Source: Diadema setosum (lineage: Eukaryota; Echinodermata; Echinoidea; Diadematoida; Diadematidae). From it: a DNA stretch of 64,000 bases. This document shows, in pieces, positions 30,993 to 64,000 of the stretch (positions within the stretch are counted from its first letter, which is position 1; each line of letters opens with the position of its first letter). The notes under the pieces were generated by a model. It ran no database searches. It was not told the origin of the DNA and worked only from the letters and a program-made list of their open reading frames with translations. Where the stretch lies: assembly GCF_964275005.1 (NCBI RefSeq), contig NC_092701.1, positions 6,058,715-6,122,714 on the forward strand. Reading direction: 5' to 3'. The position numbers and the translations under genes were made by a program.

Positions 30993-32263
30993 CAGGGGCG
31001 GATCTAGCTTTTTTCCAAGGAGGGGGTTTAAGGGTTGAGCTGGGTATTGCAAAGTGAGTGAGAGCAAAGCGAGTGGGGGGGGGAGGGTGTGGGAGGGGGG
31101 TATCCCCCCTCCCACAGTAGGGAGATTTTCAATTTTTAGGATTGCCAGCTTGCAATTTTAAGCATATTAATTACTTTGCATGCTCTATTTTCCCTCTCTC
31201 TCTCTCTTTTTTTGCCAAACATATATACAATGTATATATATATATATATATATATATATTTTTTTTGGGGGGGGGGGGGCAGGGGGGGGGGTTGGTGCAG
31301 CCCCACCCGCGCCCCAAGCGCGGTGGAACATGTCTGGTTTGGGGGGGGGGGGCAAAATTTCGACGGGGATGGGCACATTGACGTGATGGTTTGAGATCCT
31401 CGGCGAGGGAGCGAAGCGACCAAGCGGGGGGAGGGGGAGTACAAAAGTCGCGTTTATAGAGCATTTAAAAGCAAATTTCCAGGAAATTAAAAAGAGGATA
31501 GAATCATTTGCAAATGACTATGATTATACGGGGGTATAACATTATTTCATGAGACGGTGTGAGATCCGCGGCGAGAGCGAAGCGACAGAGCGGGGGAGGG
31601 TGTGGGAGGGGGATATACCTCTTCCCATGTCCCACGCATAGGGACTTTTTGTAAAAACAGAGTATAAAAGTCGCGTTTCTAGAGCATTTAAATCAAATTC
31701 CTAGGGAACTAAACACAGTAAAAAAAATCCCCGCGAAGGACTATGATCATAAATTATGCAAACTATTCATTCTATTATAAGTATGGACAGAGCGAGCGAG
31801 CCACTCTCACTTTGCCATTCGTCTGAAATGTATTCATTAAAAGCTAAAACGTAATCGCATTGTTTGAGCAATAAAAATTATTCTTGTATTACAAGAAAGC
31901 ATCGAAGAAAAGAAAAAAAGTAGGCTTTACTAAAGGTATGTTCCACGGGGCACACTCGAGGACGCGAGGCTACCATCTATACACTAAATTTACTCATAAA
32001 GTAAATATTAGTATATAAAGATATGATAATGTATATTGATAGTGTATTATAATTTTCGCCCCGTTAGGGGCGACAATTTTGCATATTCAGTTTTAAAATA
32101 GACAGCGTTTTACGCAAGAAAAGTGCCTTTATTGTTGATTTTGGTCTTCAAATAATTGACTACTTAGTTGTTGTTTGTTTGTATGTTCTTATTTTTTTTT
32201 TTTACTTGGCAGCCCAAGAGGGGGGTTTAAACCCCCTAAACCCCCCCTGTAGATCCGCCACTG
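30993..32263. mobile_element. 1.27-kb MITE, CAGKGGCGGATCTA ends
   Basis: The ends are CAGGGGCGGATCTAG and the inverse of CAGTGGCGGATCTACAGG, flanked by GTTAG on both sides (30988-30992, 32264-32268). Inside are two diverged ~222-bp units (AAAAGTCGCGTTTATAGAGC near 31443 and AAAAGTCGCGTTTCTAGAGC near 31665), (TA)n at 31232-31258, T/G runs at 31258-31280 and GAGCGAAGCGAC blocks at 31409 and 31577. No transposase. It lies in LINE C's 3' UTR. Confidence 0.8.
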
Positions 32264-45205: not shown

Positions 45206-46587
45206 TATGATAGCATTCGATACCTAATATTCATTTATCGATTGGTGAATTTCGTTGGTAACGTGTGTACCTTTCCAGGTACTACTGTACTGTTAATTTC
45301 ATACCCCAGGCCAACGGCAATGCTAGCAATGCAGGCGTCCAGGCCGAGCTCCTAAGCTTAGCTATAATAGGCACGCTTGCTTGCGTGCTATGCTCTAGAG
45401 AAACATGGTTGGTGCGTACGTCGTCACGTGTCTACCTATTTTCGATTTTTTTTTTTTTAATGGATATGCATGGATATCATGGGCCTGTGATCGACGTCGA
45501 CGAGAAACACATGATCAACGATACTCGCTTCGGGAGTTGAGCTGTGAGCGAATTTCTTTCATAGACATTTTGTAGTTTTAGCCTCTCACTTCAACCAGTC
45601 CAAACGGTAAGGTTAGACCTGTTAAGTAACAGTGAAGTTTAACTCGACTAATGCGATCCTTCTGTGTCTGGCCATTCTGTAGCCTACCCATTTGTGTCAT
45701 TTGTTTGGTCATATGGACACGTTGAAATTACAAAAGTCCAGACATTTTCACAGTAGACCTAGAAACAGTTCTAGCCGACTCTGAAAATGTTTTCATGTTT
45801 ACAATGTTAAAGAGGGGCCAGACACATCACAAAGCCAGAATTGGTCTAGCTCTAAATCAATAAGACCCAAGACTACTCAAGAGTAAAACTACGTTAACTT
45901 CTAGATCTACACGTAAGTTTCCTCAGTACTAACATGTAGGGCTAGTAACAGAGTGGTCTTTACTCTACAGAACGTAGGCCTATCAAAAAAGAAAGAAAGA
46001 AAGAAAAAAGGTAGTCCAAATTTGGAGCCCTATACCACCATGACCATTTCTTATTAATTGTCAGCTATGGAGAGAAGATTCTACACTAAGTTTGAGGAAA
46101 GAAGAACTCTTCGTCTTTCTAGTGTCAGTATTGATACAATTGAATTATGTTGAGAAATATAATGTCATGCATGACTGAGCACATGAACTCAGAAGAGAAC
46201 AATGACAAATTGCACCTTTTCCAAGGGTTGAGTGTCACATGAGGGAACAATGAATTCAATGTCTCACTGAATGGATGGGATCTGTCAATGAAAGTGGTCA
46301 GATTAACAGCCCAACCTGGATGACTGCAGGTTTGTGTTTAGGGTTTCTTCCATTAATGGCATTATTGACATTAACCTTTTTTGGTCCAATACCTTGAACA
46401 TGGCACAGTTGTTGATAACTTCGTCACTCCCACAAAGACTAACCCATTATTAATTTTCTCTTTTTAGAAGTTTATATTCAAGCTATATAGTTTCTAGAAT
46501 GTGTTAAATATGAATAGAGATGAATGGATCATATGTGTTGGCTTTATAGTGGGAGTGACCAGTTATCTGACAGGTGGAAATGTTTAA
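45206..46587. other. Unassigned, gene-free region
   Basis: Mixed-composition non-repetitive sequence without a convincing ORF or splice pattern. A short GAAA run lies near 45990. It could be intron or intergenic DNA of the host gene. Confidence 0.45.
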
Positions 46588-47146
46588 AGGACAAGTCCAC
46601 CTTCACATACATAAGGATTGAGAGAATGCAGCAATATTAGTAGAACACATCAGTGAAAGTTTGAAGAAAATTGGACAATCCGTTTAAAAGTTACGAATAT
46701 TTTAAGTATCTGCGCAGTCACTGCTGGAAGAGAAGACTACTACAGTGTATGATGTCACATGCGTACAACTACATAAGGAAAATAAAAAGAGAATTTCACA
46801 AAACTTTACTTTTTGAATAAAGTGCACATTTCTTCGACCTGCCACTGACGTATGTTAAGGGTAATATTATTCCCCCTGCCTTCTGAAAGAGAGAAGTCGA
46901 GTGTTCTTTTGTTATGCGAGAAAAATGGATATATGTTGAATTTTCTTTATTCTTTCTTTATATCGTTGTACTCATGTGACATCACAAGCTATAGTAGTCT
47001 TTTCATCCAGCCGTGACTGAGCAGAAAGTTCAAAAATTCAAAACTTTTTAACGGATTGTCCGATTTTGCTCAAACTCTCACTGATGTGATCTACTAATAT
47101 TGCTGCATTCACTCAACCCACATGTTTATGAAGGTGAACTTGTCCT
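46588..47146. mobile_element. 559-bp TTAA MITE (AGGACAAGTCCACC), copy 1
   Basis: TTAA flanks (46584-46587, 47147-47150). Inverted arms of at least 110 bp start AGGACAAGTCCACCTTCA and include GAGAGAATGCAGCAATATTA and ATTGGACAATCCGTT. The interior is AT-rich. Copy 2 at 55284-55841 is the same element in the opposite orientation. TTAA plus AGG ends suggest Kolobok- or piggyBac-type mobilisation. Confidence 0.85.
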
Positions 47147-47150
47147 TTAA

Positions 47151-51334: not shown

Positions 51335-52977
51335 ATTTGTCTTCGAGTTAATGGATTCCGCCCAATTTTGGGCGGAACCCATAAATCTGTCAGAGCTCCC
51401 GTCCTCTGAAGCGCGAAATTCGAATTATCCTGCTCAGCGTGTTATCAGAGCCGGGTGGTGGGAGGACTCTCCTTACTCCCTGTGTGTTGGCATTGCGGCG
51501 TGTGTGTACCAATGGTGTGGATGCTGTACTAGTATTCTATAGTATGCAGGATGAGGGCAGGGAGGTGGAAAGTTTCCACCTCCCTGATGAGGGTGATGGT
51601 ATACATTCAGGGAGGCGTATATTCTACCTCTCTGATGACACGAACATTCCGACTTTTCTATGATCTAAAGTAAGGTCGGATGGAAGAATCGGCAATCGTA
51701 GACAGTGTAGTCCATGATGTGTATATTCCTAAAAGTTTTCGATGTTTTTGATTGTTACGTTTTTTTCCTGTTTATACAAGATACGCACAATGGTCAAGTG
51801 AACTATGTTTCCAATAAAATTAAAGCAGACCATTTTGTGTAATTGTGTCTATCGACGAAATCAAAATCATATATCCTTGTAAATGTTACTTACGTTATAA
51901 GCTCAATGAGGGCTAGGTGTCCAAGGGAGATTTTTTTTTTGTTTCTTTATTTTTGCTGGGTTTTTTTTTTCAACTAATGTATAATGCAATACAATCAGTA
52001 AAGTTCACAATTGCGAACCACATTTCCCTTCCTCCCTTCACAAAGTATCTCAATCAATGCATAACCATCTGGGTCGTTTTCTCGTTTCCACTATGTTGTC
52101 TAATGGATTTCTATTGTAGGCTCGACTTGGGGAAAACCAGCAATATCTCTTTTTCTTTCTTTTTTTTTTTACTTTTTTTTTTTAGTAGGCCTTATGAGTA
52201 TGAATGTAAGAACCCGGTCTAATTTGACTATGCTGAATCCTACAAATAAAACAAAATTCACGGATCTTTGACCAATGAAAAAATACAAAATGGATGCATA
52301 TTTTGATAAAAACGGGCAATTTCAGATACACATTTTTTTACTCTAATATGTGATATTGAGTTCACTTCAATGATTTAATCTCAAAGGTGCTAGAGACGTG
52401 AAATGCAATCGTCAGCTCAATGTAAATGAACATTATCTGAGGTCTTAAATCTTTCCCACATTCATCAATGTGCGAATTGGTGCTCAAATATGCAAATAAA
52501 CAGCACCAACAGTGAAGTATTTTAATTTGTTGCTTTTTTTTGGGGGGGGGGGGAGGGGGATGCTTTGGGTTTTTTTCAGAGAGAAACACGTTAACAATTC
52601 ATGTAGACATTATTGTTCTCATGGCTTAAATAATATCAGTGATCATTTTCGACGAATAATGAAAACTCTAAAGAGGTTTCCCAAATCAGGTATCCGGAAT
52701 TGTGAGTTTCAAAATCAGGCATCTTTGGTGATGAAAAGATCGAGGCCCTCTAAAAAAAGCAACCAAACAACCCCCCCCCCCAAAAAAAAAAAACCCAACA
52801 ACAACAACAACAACAACAACAACTGCAAGTATGATAGACTTGATTGTGGCGACATTGATTGATGCACAACGCCTTCCGCTGTATTTGTTCGTATATAAAA
52901 CTCATAGTAAGAGTCAGAATGATGAGATACATTACAAAAACACACACAATTTCTCCATCTGAAAAGCATATATGCTT
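51335..52977. other. Unassigned, with a 29-nt palindrome and homopolymer pairs
   Basis: 51558-51586 is a perfect palindrome with 14-nt arms (CAGGGAGGTGGAAA) and one central base. 51820-51835 contains AATAAAATTAAA, which could be a poly(A) signal but has no supported gene before it. T/G runs at 52535-52552 are mirrored by C/A runs at 52770-52792 followed by AAC repeats. The ORFs at 51351-51663 overlap the palindrome and are not convincing. Confidence 0.45.
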
Positions 52978-53011
52978 ACATATTTTACAGAGCATGTGGA
53001 AGCATTATAAT

Positions 53012-55093
53012 CAGTGGCGTATCTAGGGAAAACGGCGCCCGGGGCAAGCGAGAAAATTGCGCCTCTAATTTCTGAAAAAGTGTTCAACCCCAACCCCATC
53101 CCGGTATAGGGACTTTAAACAAAGTCCACATGATATGCTTTTTCAAGTACTTAAAAGGGGTCTTTTTTGAGGGTGATTTAAATGTAATGAATTTTGATAA
53201 ATTTCGGCGAGCGAGCGCAGCGAGCGAGCCGAAAATTTTTGTATTTCAGCTTGCAAAACATGGAATTCTTGTCATTTTTTGCTTATTAAATCTTACAATT
53301 CTAATCAAGATATAGTGACGGCCTTATAGATAACGATTTATACCAATTAGCTGAGGATTTTAAAAAAATACTCTAATTTAGTACGCGCGAGTGAGCCGAA
53401 ATTTGTATATTTCCGCGTTATCATCACGTTTTGCTCTTATCTCTTCTTCTTCTTTTTTTTTTTTTTTGATAAATTTTGGCGAGCGAGCGCAGCGAGCGAG
53501 CCGAAAATTTTCGTATTTCAGCTTAAAAAACATGGAACTCTTGTCATTTTTTGCTTAATGAATCATACAATTCTATATCAAGATATAATGACGGCCTTAT
53601 AGATAACGATTTACACCAACAAGCTGAGGATTTTAAAAAATACTCTAAATTAGTACGCGCGAATGAGCCGAAATTTGTATATTTCCGCGTTATCATCACG
53701 TTTTGCTCTTATCTCTTCTTCTTTTTTTTTTTGATAAATTTTGGCGAGCGAGCGCAGCGAGCGAGCCGAAAATTTTCGTATTTCAGCTTAAAAAACATGG
53801 AACTCTTGTCATTTTTTGCTTAATGAATCATACAATTCTATATCAAGATATAATGACGGCCTTATAGATAACGATTTACACCAACAAGCTGAGGATTTTA
53901 AAAAATACTCTAAATTAGTACGCGCGAATGAGCCGAAATTTGTATATTTCCGCGTTATCATCACGTTTTGCTCTTATCTCTTCTTCTTTTTTTTTTTTTT
54001 TTTGATAAATTTTGGCGAGCGAGCGCAGCGAGCGAGCCGAAAATTTTCGTATTTCAGCTTAAAAAACATGGAACTCTTGTCATATTTTGCTTATTACATC
54101 TTACAATTCTATATAATCAAGATATGTAGTGACGGCCTTATAGATAACGATTTATACCAACAAACTGAGGACTTGGAAAAAATACTCTAAATTATAGTAC
54201 GAGCGAGTGAGCCAAAATTTGTATATTTCCGCGTCATCATCACGTTTTGTTCTTATCTCTTCCTCTCTTTTTATGGATAAATTTTGGCGAGCGAGCGCAG
54301 CGAGCGAGCCGATAATTTTCGTATTTCAGCTTACAAAACATGGAACTCTTGTCATTTTTTGCTTATTAAATCTTACAATTCTAATCAAGATATAGTGACT
54401 GCCTTATAGAGAACGATATACCAACAAATTGAGGACTTGAAAAAAAATACTCTAAATTAGTACGAGCAAGTGAGCCGAAATTTGCGCGTCATCATTACGT
54501 TTTGTTCTTATCTTGTTTGATTTGGGGTATTTTTGCGCCCCCCCCCCCCCTGTATATTCGAAACCGTTGGCGCCTTCTTTTAAACCAATTGGCGATCGCT
54601 TCAGAACGAAAGAAATTGCAGCCGCTGCTCCGTGAAACATTTTGCCTGCTAAATATAAAATGACATGTGTGAACACAATAGACATTGTCATTTTGTCCGC
54701 GTCATCATCACGTTTTGTTCTTACCTTCTTTTTTTAATATACATTTTGGCGAGCGAGCGTAGCGAGCGAGACGAAAATTTTTGTATTTCAGTTTACAGAA
54801 CATGGAATTCTTGTGTGAACACAATGAAAATTGTCATTTTGTTCGCGTCATCATCATGTTTTGTTTTTATCTTCTTTGATTTGGTTTTCTGCCCCCCCCC
54901 CCCCCCCTCCGGGCGAGTTTCCCTTCTTCTTCTTCTTCTTTTCTTTTTTTTTTTCTTTTTTTCTTCTTCTTCGTTTTTTTTTTTTCTTTTTTTTTTCTTC
55001 TTCTTCGTTTTTTTTTTTTAGTCTTTGCGCCCCCAAGGAGTGGCGCCCGGGGCACGTGCCCCCCTTGCCCCCCCCCCCCTAGATACGCCACTG
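53012..55093. mobile_element. 2.08-kb element, CAGTGGCGTATCTAGG ends, with internal tandem array
   Basis: The ends are CAGTGGCGTATCTAGGG and CCCTAGATACGCCACTG. Next to them are GGCGCCCGGGGCA and its inverse. The 8-bp direct repeat ATTATAAT flanks it (53004-53011, 55094-55101). CAG-type ends and 8-bp duplication fit hAT-like mobilisation. The interior is a tandem array plus a TTC-rich tract (54919-55020). It has no transposase. Confidence 0.8.
53196..54510 (+). repeat. Five tandem units of ~265-272 bp
   Basis: Units start at GATAAATTT: 53196, 53468, 53733, 54004 and 54276, with a partial sixth near 54738. Each has GGCGAGCGAGCGCAGCGAGC, CAAAACATGGAA-type text, TGACGGCCTTATAGA and a T-run of variable length. 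Units two and three are nearly identical. ORFs of 90 and 124 aa read through the array in one frame; they begin and end at unit features and look like repeat translations, not genes. Confidence 0.85.
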
Positions 55094-55283
55094 ATTATAA
55101 TGCTTCCACATGCTCTGTAAAATATGTTGATGACAAGCAAATCATTATATTAATGCATAAGGCAGGCTAATATTCGGAGAAGAGCTATGATTCAATATGA
55201 CCTGCACGGGAAAAATATTACATTTTTTTTTTAATTCAAGCTAAAAGTATCTGAATCGGACATATTATATTCTTTAAATTTAA

Positions 55284-55841
55284 AGGACAAGTTCACCTTT
55301 ATAGACATGTGGGTTGAGAGAATGCAGCAATATTAGTAGAACACATAAGTGAGAGTTTGAGGAAAATTGGACAATCCGTTCAAAAGTTATGAATTTTTGA
55401 AATTTCTGCTCAGTCACGACTGGATGAAAAGACAACTATAGCTTGTGATGTCACATGTGTACAACTCTATAAAGAAAGAATAAGGAAAATTCAACATATT
55501 TCCATTTTTCTCGCATAGCAAAAGAACACTCAACTTCTCTCTTTCGGGAGGCAGAGGGAATAATATTACCCCTAACATACGTCAGTAACAAGTCGAAGAA
55601 ATGTGCACTTTATTCAAAAAATAAAGTTTTGTGAAATTCTCTTTTATTTTCCTTATATCGTTGTACGCATGTGACATCATGCACCGTAGTAGTCTTCTCA
55701 TCCAGCAGTGATTGCGCAGACACTTTAAAAATTCATAACTTTTGAACGGATTGTCCGATTTTCCTCAAACTTCCACCAATGTGTTCTGCTAATATTGCTG
55801 CATTCTCTCAATCCTTATGTATATGAAGGTGGACTTGTCCT
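55284..55841. mobile_element. 558-bp TTAA MITE (AGGACAAGTTCACC), copy 2
   Basis: TTAA at 55280-55283 and 55842-55845. It is the reverse complement of 46588-47146 along its whole length, with moderate divergence. Non-coding. Confidence 0.85.
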
Positions 55842-55859
55842 TTAAGTAATTCTCATTGT

Positions 55860-56245
55860 TATAATTCGTTACCTTCCGAACAAAGTTCACTAATGCGAAT
55901 GATTAAGTTCATTATTCAGAAAGTTTGTCAGTGCTAAAATGTAATAAGTTTCTTGAATCAAAAATGTATGATTAATCCCAAAATGAATGCAGAGTCGTAA
56001 TTCTTCAGAAGGTTTGTTGATCAGATCATGTTTTTTGGAATAACGAACATTATTCAATATCTGTGATATTGAATAATGTTCGTACAGATATTGAATAATG
56101 TTCGTTATTCCGAAAAACTTAATTGGGTTCTTTAATCCAAAGTTTCGTTTATTCCAAAATGAATGAAGGGTCGTTATTCCGAAGGTGCGTCAATCTGGTG
56201 ATGAAATAGGGTTTGTAATTCCGAAAATAAGACATGTTTTATTTT
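55860..56245. repeat. TTCGTTATTCCGAA repeat cluster with ATTGAATAATGTTCG hairpin
   Basis: Several direct and inverted copies of AATAACGAAC / GTTCGTTATTCC. AATATCTGTGATATTGAATA and AGATATTGAATAATGTTCG lie between 56054 and 56106. It is related to 10537-10735. Non-coding. Confidence 0.6.
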
Positions 56246-56532
56246 TCAGCGAAATGCGGTGTTGTTGTTGTTAAGATAGAACATTACGCAATGAAATTTA
56301 AGGGAAGAGCGGTGGAATACAATTGGAATTTTGCAATTGTGTTATTGATAGAAAACGAATATTTCCTCCTCTTCCTCCGTATCCCACCTTTCCCATGAAC
56401 TCTAGCCAAGATCGTCATCGGGATGAACCATTCTTTGCCACATTCTCCATTCAATTATCGGAATCAGGAATGCAACAACATCAATATTTACAAAAGGTCA
56501 CACAAATGCTCGGTTTTCCCACCTCCCTATGG

Positions 56533-56965
56533 CATGGCTCGACACTAACTTTTTTGTTTGGTGGCCCGATGGGGCCACCAAAATCCTAAATTTCAAGTTT
56601 TTGGTGGCCCGAGAGAAAAATGTGGTGTCCCAAAAAAAACCAATAAAATTAAAAGTCCTTTTCTTTTAATGAGTCAAATATTTAAGATTTATGATAGTAA
56701 GAATTCGAAGTTGGACATATCTACTCATAAATAAACTTCAACAAACTTGCAACACTCACTCTCAGGCATTCATTCAGTCCTTTTCATCCATCCTTTGAAC
56801 AAATTTAACTGCTAATTTCCGGCGCAAAAAGTTACGAATTTATTGACATACTTTTCAAAAAAATTTAGTGGCCCGAGGCGGGCCACCAAATTTGCCCTTT
56901 TTTGAAATTTGGTGGCCCGACTTTCATTTTTGGTGGCCCCGGGCCACCGGGCCACCGTTAGTGTC
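56533..56965. mobile_element. 433-bp hAT-like MITE (CAKGGCTCGACACTAAC)
   Basis: The ends are CATGGCTCGACACTAAC and GTTAGTGTCGAGCCCTG, flanked by CCTATGG (56526-56532 and 56966-56972). Subterminal repeats of GGTGGCCCG and CGGGCCACC occur at both ends. Non-coding. Confidence 0.75.
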
Positions 56966-56972
56966 GAGCCCT

Positions 56973-58729
56973 GCCTATGGTTATACCACCTACTAGTATA
57001 TGGCCTACATGCTTTAACTAAAGACATGCATGTGAAATCGAGAAGTTTGTCGTCAAGGGATTAAAAAGCAAAAATTACAGGATGGAGACCATCATTAATA
57101 ATTGGTTGTGGTGTGCCATATAGTACCGAACTTATTTCTGTTCTCTGCTTATCTAAAGTCAATTTTTATTTTGCATTGAATGAGGTAATAAAAGCAGCCA
57201 AATTGTGTTGCTTCTTATATATAGAAATAAAAAAAACAATTGATAGTCTTACGATGGGGTGATAATTGTCTCTAAACATATTTTGTCATAAACTTGGCAC
57301 CTGTTTCTTTGTATAGAAAGATTATTATAATTATATAGCTAATATGGACGGATCTCTGCGCATATGAAAAACAATGAAAAAAAAAGTGGATGAGCATCTT
57401 TTGAGAACTTTAAATATAATTTGAATTGAGGCAAAATATTCCACAAAACTGATACTTTCCTGTATACAAGTGATTGATAAATCTGCAATAAGCTGAAAAA
57501 ATGTATGAGTTACATGGACAAATCTATATCAAATGCTAGAGCTTGTCATATCTTAATTATGTGAATACAAAAACTGTAAGTCAGAGTCTATTATTGTTTG
57601 TAAGTTTGGCCGTTAATTTTGTTGCATGATGACCTTGGGAAATGAAGTCTTTCAGCTGAAAATATCCAAAACCAAGCTGCAATGATAATTCATTATGATT
57701 ACACTATATGTCCACTTGATATATCTCAGTAATGAACCATGTTGATTGCGACTTAAACTAAATCATTCTTTCTTGCATATACCCATGGATGTTCATAGAA
57801 AAACAAGGCTTTTTAGGGGGCATAATTGCCCCGAAGCGCATCATGCTTCAAACAATGGCCTTCTGTTAAAGAAATGATTTTTTTTATTATTATTATTTGT
57901 TTTATAACCACTTCAGACAAGGTTTTTATTATCAAGTGACTTTATGAAAAATAAATTGGAAATGAGTAGATGTGGCTCTTATTTTTAAAGTGAAGAGCGC
58001 ATTCTTGAATTTGACATGCGCTGGTCACAAAACTGGTCCCTCTATAGATGCTTATTGCTAAATGAATGGATGTTGGAGCATAGTAGTGGTAAGAAGTGAC
58101 CTTCCAAATACTACGGCTATCAAGCGAGCTATTTCAAGGGATAGAAGATGGTGTATGAAGACATCTTATGTTGAGGGGCCACAATACCCCACTTCACTTA
58201 TTTACATGCAAGTGTGCTGCATTAAAAACTTCATTTTTCTTGTGTGGGTTCATACATATCCCGATGTTATTATCTTGGTGGGTATCATGTGTGAGATGAA
58301 GAAATAAACAATATCATACAATATTTTTAAGTTAAGTCAGTTGCCGCAATGTTTCCACGAGAGGGACACGATTAAGACAAGAACTGATCGGAAGAGCACG
58401 TTGCTAATCATCTGTTTCTTTTTTTATTCACTGCTATTAAGTTATAGAAAGAAGGGCCTCAACTGAACGTATTCATCAGCAAACACGAACATAAAAAATA
58501 CATGTACATATACATTATCACGTGGGCCGCCCACCCACAACTCATCTCCACATACTGAGTTTTTACAAAAATTTTGCACAATACTCCACTGCACTTTCTT
58601 TTTTCGGACTTCATTTTTCGCTCTTTGGATGCCATGTGTTTTGGGCATGGTGTAGCTCCGTGCCGCATAGCGTGGATAGTGAGTAAATAGGCCCCATCGG
58701 AAACAGGATTATCGTACCAGAAAACCTTT
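56973..58729. other. Unassigned, gene-free region
   Basis: AT-rich unique-looking sequence with no convincing ORF, splice pattern or repeat boundary. Confidence 0.5.
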
Positions 58730-59245
58730 CCATGCAGTAATAGACCAGGAGCTGGCTGCTGGTCAATTTACCCCACTAAGCCCAAAAGGTTTGACCCCTC
58801 AGAGTTACTGGGACCACCCCCCTCATTGAAAAAATGGGCGTCAGCCTGGTCCCTGAGGGTGGGTTCGGCCCCCAGGGACCCCCCGAAAAGGCCCTCCGGG
58901 GGTGTAATTTACCCCATGGAGCCCATGGACCAAACTTGGCCTAAATGAATGTCCTATGGGTGTACATAATCAAAATATAAAAACTGACAAAATATCTGGT
59001 TGGGAAAGGGGTTGCCAGACCGCTTGTTTGCAGGTACAAAACCTTGTTTTTGGTCACAGAGTCTGCGCCAAGACTACACTGTCCCATAGGCCCTGTACTG
59101 TAGCGTCTCCCAACAGTCTGAGGGACAGTGCCAGTTAGTGCATGTAGTAGTCTTTGCACAGACTCCTTAACGCTCAACAAGGGTTTATGCCTGCAAACTA
59201 CCCGTAAAACCCTGGGACCCAGGGTAGTTTGCATCCAGAAATTCA

Positions 59246-59292
<47 letters not shown>

Positions 59293-63367: not shown

Positions 63368-63418
<51 letters not shown>

Positions 63419-64000
63419 TGAATTTCTGGATGCAAACTACCCTGGGTCCAAGGATTTAACGGGTAGTTTGCAGGCACAAACCCTTGTTGAGCGTTAAGGA
63501 GTCTGCGCCAAGACTACTACATGCACTAACTGGCACTGTCCCTCAGACTGTTGGGAGACGCTACAGTACAGGGCCTATGGGACAGTGTAGTCTTGGCGCA
63601 GACTCTGTGACCAAAAACAAGGTTTTGTGCCTGCAAACAAGCGGTCTGGCAACCCCTTTCCCAACCAGATGTTTTGTCAGTTTTTATATTTTGATTATGT
63701 ACATCCATAGGACATTCATTTAGGCCAAGTTTGGTCCATGGGCTCCATGGGGTAAATTACACCCGCCGGAGGGCCTTTTCGGGGGGGGGGGGGGGTCCCT
63801 GTGGGCCGAATCCGTCCTCAGGGACCAGGCTGACGCCCATTTTTTCAATGAGGGGGTGGTCCCAGCAACTCTGAGGGGTCAAACCTTTTGGGCTTGGTGG
63901 GATAAATTGACCAGCAGCCAGCTCCTGGTCTATAAACAGTGCATGGAAATACTCCACGGACAGTGGATGCATGTAACGTATATGGAGAGTGTCCTTGGGA

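Follow-up and report, generated by a model that had tools for sequence, protein, structure and literature searches.

Inverted arms and the enclosed element

The window analysed here is a stretch of 64,000 nucleotides from the Diadema setosum genome (contig NC_092701.1, positions 6,058,715 to 6,122,714), and all coordinates refer to it. A repeat search of the window identified two perfect inverted arms of 51 nt (52978-53028 and 55077-55127, 100% complementary), each composed of a 17-bp terminal inverted repeat (TIR), the octamer ATTATAAT and a 26-bp outer arm. Between the octamers lies an element of 2082 bp (53012..55093, plus strand) that was delimited from its TIRs, its target site duplication (TSD), blastn matches and an ORF scan, and that has no long ORF (the longest stop-free stretch is 132 codons). 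The TIR CAGTGGCGTATCTAGGG is present at both ends of this element, on the plus strand at 53012..53028 (the 'GAAAACGG' end, defined by comparison of 32 copies) and on the minus strand at 55077..55093, where comparison of copies gave an opposite end of poly-G followed by CAAGGGGGG. A 272-bp tandem repeat array of 4.8 units is found within the element (53192..54484, plus strand).

The two copies of the octamer (53004..53011 and 55094..55101, both read on the plus strand) are identical. A script-based comparison showed that the 34-bp flanks of the element are exact reverse complements of each other and that, when joined, they form a perfect 60-bp palindrome. The original prediction, in which the element was placed at the exact centre of such a palindrome and the 8-bp duplication was taken to be the palindrome's own centre, was thus right on both points, including its coordinates. 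The right outer arm (55102..55127, reading ACATATTTTACAGAGCATGTGGAAGC on the minus strand) is the native one, as it runs on into a host repeat and recurs at 20 further places with at most three mismatches; the left outer arm (52978..53003, plus strand) is a derived inverted copy that paralogues lack at this position according to the paralogue comparison and a junction search. Adjoining the left arm is a 14-bp palindrome, AAGCATATATGCTT (52964..52977), made up of 7 nt of native right flank and a 7-nt mirror copy. A 21-base piece of the arm had 2 matches in the window (at most three mismatches) as compared to a mean of 0.01 in 100 shuffled sequences, and no inverted similarity of the flanks was detected beyond the arms (the observed score was reached by 173 of 300 shuffles).

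Long palindromes were otherwise rare. Dinucleotide runs aside, none of at least 40 bp was found in 322,174 bases examined, a partly overlapping and non-random set consisting of the window and loci of the same genome, and the longest perfect palindrome in this set was 38 bp and was itself a short-period repeat. A 52-bp AT-run palindrome in the window was set aside as a dinucleotide run, and the 60-bp palindrome, split as it is by the element, falls outside the count. Elsewhere in the window, an inverted repeat pair of 354 bp (58900-59253 and 63411-63764) spans about 4.9 kb, with more matching stretches outside it.

The genome (912.7 Mb, 102 contigs) contains 866 + 864 copies of the 16-bp element end and 0 of the reversed control sequence. 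The end together with its neighbouring bases had no matches in viral contigs and neither had a 25-base flank pattern; the 5 viral and 21 prokaryote stretches containing the 16-base end were taken as chance matches. All 31 convergent pairs among the matches listed (100 of 1730 ends, contigs C1 and C2) were compared with the window element, and the best blastn match of each was about 78-88% identical to it. The first 16 bp of the TIR are common to 32 of 32 compared copies because the copies were chosen by them, and base 17 is the same at every end except one (L084). Copies of the family have a common TIR of about 17 bp, behind which the two ends are unlike. Shifted matches suggest that other copies also contain the 272-bp array, the dimensions of which were measured in the window copy.

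Short TIRs starting with CAG or CAGNG are the rule for hAT elements. Given that an exact 8-bp TSD was present in 24 of the 31 other pairs (one had a single mismatch and six had none), as it is in the window copy, this is a normal hAT-type family. Fifteen of the 38 unpaired ends listed were also examined: 5 gave a partner, with an exact TSD in 4 and two mismatches in 1, which is no independent test of the TSD as partners were accepted only with at most two TSD mismatches, and the 10 without a near-TSD partner stand outside the resulting count of 36 other copies. Exact TSDs thus total 28 (24 + 4) in these 36. Three of the 31 pairs (L057, L071 and L081) are not independent in that they share the same flanks; one is in the opposite orientation and none has a TSD, which would fit an element that travels as part of a larger repeat. 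Judged by its sequence features, the window element is a non-autonomous member of this abundant hAT-type family. It resembles non-autonomous elements of the Ac/Ds, Tol2 and hobo type in its TIR beginning with CAG, its 8-bp TSD, the lack of a long ORF and the many copies, and it differs from hAT relatives in having no visible transposase and an internal 272-bp array.

The possibility that the 34 bp are an extended TIR of the element was rejected, given that the ends of the 31 other copies diverge right after the 16-17-bp TIR and that their flanks are unlike those in the window. Two further occurrences of related ends were observed. Five ends that match the family exactly, each after AT and all on one strand, lie at about 24.520-24.552 Mb of contig C13, and the spacing of the last four (about 6.9-7.0 kb) suggests a tandem array that includes the element end. 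A related TIR pair (CAGGGGCGGATCTAGC ... CCACTG) in the window (30993-32263) has a short GTTAG direct repeat only, perhaps reflecting a TSD length different from that of the 8-bp family.

The host repeat and the 39-bp mirror insert

The arms lie in a host repeat (51761..57694), interrupted at this locus, whose blocks are about 78-94% identical to paralogous loci in blastn comparisons; these limits are the match limits, set by the 3-kb loci compared, and one locus (L109) matches on to 51388. With at most three mismatches the 26-bp arm occurs at 22 places, 2 of which are the window's own arms. Each of the other 20 carries a single arm in a non-palindromic context, typically ...GCTTGTCATCA-ARM-ACTATGCTTTTCAGATGGAG..., within a repeat of about 3 kb or more. 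The left-hand context is common to all 20 paralogues and the right-hand context to 19 (in L098 the similarity to the repeat ends shortly past the arm); L098 and L109 match the host repeat in part or more weakly. The uninterrupted native junction was found at 21 sites, i.e. the 20 paralogues and one more that is known from a 28-base match only.

At each of the 20 other places the outer arm stands alone, and at 19 the host repeat extends from it to either side; the arms were for this reason not assigned to an outer MITE or foldback element. A group of five loci with GCATGTGGAAGCATTATCAC, considered as a second insertion at the same point, was found to lie in an unrelated repeat. The same host repeat contains other interruptions: a 566-bp foldback-type repeat (TTAAAGGACAAGT ... 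inverted arms) at about 55281-55846, related to a repeat near 46584-47150, and a 435-bp stretch at about 56536-56970 with TIRs GGCTCGACACTAAC and, nearby, the 7-bp direct repeat CCTATGG. In one paralogue (L089) the former is replaced by about 16 other bases and the latter is absent.

When the window is read in the orientation of the paralogues, its right flank corresponds to the native left half and its left flank to the native right half. Between the native halves, which overlap by 2 bp (TA), the window carries 39 extra bases, TATAATGCTTCC...ATATGTAAGCATA, that are absent from the uninterrupted paralogues (52971..53009, minus strand, one of several equivalent placements). The insert can be read as 30 nt copied in reverse complement from the native left half, which ends ...GGAAGCATTA, followed by 7 nt copied likewise from the right half, which begins TATGCTTTTC; this two-tract model leaves no errors and no leftover base. 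A single four-point template switch returning upstream of its start accounts for the same sequence with 1 edit, as compared to 39 edits without mirroring. The native reference in these fits is a 62-base composite string that is present in no single copy, and the 1-edit fit refers to the version with T at the native centre; with C, the majority base, the two-tract model has 2 mismatches. At that place 18 of 20 paralogues read GGAAGCAC (CACTATG or CACTGTG) and two have T, and the assumed native centre CATTATG is present in 1 of 20 (L109, with an arm that differs elsewhere) and nearly so in L098 (CATTATA).

A search of the genome for the return junction (at most three mismatches) had a single match, the window locus. 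Inverted arms next to repeats are a known source of assembly errors, and the inverted copy could in principle be a false one created during assembly or library preparation. To this explanation we give the least credit of all, given that the other junction has a second 7-nt mirror followed by native sequence and that the arms enclose an exact 8-bp duplication of hAT length, a combination not expected from an artefact.

We propose that, as a first step, erroneous inverted copying of local sequence, in the course of replication or the repair of a break, would have inserted the 39 bp in one copy of the host repeat, converting the native GGAAGCAT-TATGCTTTTCAG into a 60-bp perfect palindrome followed by the 14-bp one. 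A short-range template switch would be the simplest class of event for such a mirror copy. Short-range template switching is a known source of perfect inverted repeats. Thousands of switches have been described in great apes, and those with a return point before the start tend to appear as one large insertion (PMC7954356, PMC8794818). The window event is similar to the switches described in these reports in that perfect inverted repeats would be generated from nearby sequence in one event; it differs in being deduced from paralogues instead of orthologues, the ancestral state having been taken from paralogues within one assembly, and in requiring 1 extra edit as a single event.

We rate template switching as the more likely mechanism; its main rival is a hairpin route. 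Here the palindrome would again precede the insertion, with both break ends capped by hairpins that were cut open off-centre, 30 and 7 nt away from their tips, before being joined in the manner of P nucleotides; the break may have been left by an earlier transposon on its excision. The 30 + 7 partition, in which every base is explained, fits slightly better than the switch (0 as compared to 1 edit), and the hAT enzymes Hermes and Kat1 are reported to form hairpins on flanking DNA (PMC4763223). However, the overlap of the native halves is shorter than the 6-8 bp or so that we would expect from an 8-bp hAT duplication, and a remnant of an earlier element was not recognised at the locus. We regard this route as unlikely.

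Searches of this assembly with the arm and with the junction, allowing at most three mismatches, revealed no empty palindromic allele, and the search for empty copies of the 60-bp palindrome that had been suggested as a test thus gave none. As the non-palindromic empty paralogues show the source of the palindrome, the option of a pre-existing palindrome stands in changed form: the suggestion that a tiny foldback had received the insertion was right as regards an existing palindrome and wrong as regards a foldback element, in place of which a larger repeat would have acquired a local mirror insertion of 39 bp.

Flanks and target sites of other family copies

The original prediction also offered that the mobilising enzyme prefers palindrome centres or cruciform tips. 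As a flank score we counted how many of the 26 bases beyond the octamer on one side are complementary to their counterparts on the other side, and palindromic outer flanks were present in 0 of the 36 other copies (31 pairs and 5 further copies). The window copy scored 26 of 26, whereas the 31 pairs had a mean of 6.9 and a maximum of 11, and the 5 further copies scored 2-9; by our own arithmetic, 6.9 of 26 is the base-composition expectation. Self-complementarity of the 24 exact TSDs was likewise near both null expectations (mean 1.17 of 4 pairs, as compared to 1.06 from composition and 1.22 from column frequencies) and one of the 24 was fully palindromic (CCGATCGG). A standing preference of the family for long palindromes is not supported by these data, and the idea finds no support as a general rule for the enzyme; the window copy differs from the 36 others examined in lying in a long palindrome. 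Taken literally, what had been named as evidence against the prediction was what we found, namely ordinary flanks in the copies examined and no empty palindrome in the assembly.

A wider version of this idea, in which this family, or hAT transposase generally, prefers extruded cruciforms or palindrome centres, would account for the exact centring at the window locus. Target motifs of cut-and-paste elements have been described as palindromic and as reaching past the TSD (PMC3276498), and for Galileo, of the P superfamily, a 15-bp palindromic motif centred on the TSD has been reported and a stem-loop suggested (PMC4168063), which resembles the arrangement in the window. However, the motifs in these reports are 7-15 bp and not 60 bp, and the Galileo motif is short and common to its insertions while the window palindrome is long and confined to one locus. 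Together with the ordinary flanks and TSDs of the other copies, this makes such a preference very unlikely. The column counts of the TSDs suggest a weak symmetric core near nYTAYARn, in agreement with published motifs of hAT and other TIR elements, which are likewise weak and palindromic (PMC3276498, PMC4825651). In the literature searched (titles and beginnings of abstracts), short palindromic target motifs were the only ones described, and a eukaryotic transposon lying at the centre of a long palindrome was not among the reports found.

Order of events and exact centring

In all 20 paralogues read, the junction lacks ATTATAAT (the nearest has ATTATACT), and after the arm this octamer occurs solely at the window locus. 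It forms where ATTA joins its mirror TAAT, and past the mirrored arm the native TATGCTT has been retained. Given that ATTATAAT is known only in the mirrored allele, the palindrome was probably present first, and as insertion into the unmirrored site would duplicate another octamer, the mirrored allele most likely preceded the element. Based on the paralogues and on parsimony, we infer that the most likely order is palindrome first and hAT element second, the element, moved in trans by a hAT transposase, inserting at ATTATAAT and duplicating the octamer in a second step.

The reverse order, in which the element inserted into the native repeat and one flank was mirrored later by copying out through the inverted TIR, has in its favour that a TIR common to both ends might permit strand switching during copying. 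Both element-side octamers are ATTATAAT, although the native site has ATTATGCT or a similar sequence, the native right flank TATGCTTTTCAG persists beyond the mirrored arm, and the self-complementary 8-bp repeat would be a coincidence with a probability of 0.5% (from composition) or 0.85% (from family column frequencies). Insertion before mirroring is on these grounds highly improbable, even more so than a general preference for cruciforms.

The new palindrome centre contains TTATAA, which is the core of the weakly preferred target motif TNA(C/G)TTATAA(G/C)TNA reported for the hAT element Tol2 (PMC4825651), and the centre would thus be a plausible hAT target in its own right. Less favourably, when scored on the family's own motif (from the 24 TSDs), ATTATAAT took 9th place among the 107 octamers in the empty allele, with a score reached by 8.4% of random octamers. 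The symmetric hAT-type target core TTATAA, and not a search by the enzyme for long palindromes, is probably the reason that the centre was hit. Since long palindromes were rare in the 322,174 bases, insertions placed uniformly would rarely coincide with an exact centre; for about 870 uniform insertions we estimate an expected number at such centres well below one. The two events might instead have been linked, with the transposase integrating at a TTATAA tip exposed by a hairpin or cruciform at the locus, or with the element re-entering a hairpin left by an earlier hAT excision. We consider such a link doubtful, and less probable than the hairpin route to the palindrome itself, though not as improbable as a family-wide preference. 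There is also ascertainment, in that a scan for odd structures finds the odd one among very many insertions.

The reading we prefer, with a probability of about 0.72, is that a template-switch-like event created the palindrome in one copy of the host repeat and that a hAT element later inserted at its TTATAA centre, without seeking out long palindromes. The parts are of known kinds and their combination is unusual, a double coincidence and no new targeting system. The locus would then represent an ordered pair of events at one site, a template-switch-like palindrome followed by insertion at the newly formed symmetric centre; if the events were linked, non-B DNA resulting from a copying error would have served as the insertion target. 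Where flanks belong to a repeat family, they can provide the 'empty site' and in this way test readings that invoke targeting. Our results suggest that symmetric TTATAA-like cores usable by hAT elements may arise through local inverted-copy mutations, and that the central insertion, which separates the arms, may preserve a palindrome that would not persist without it.
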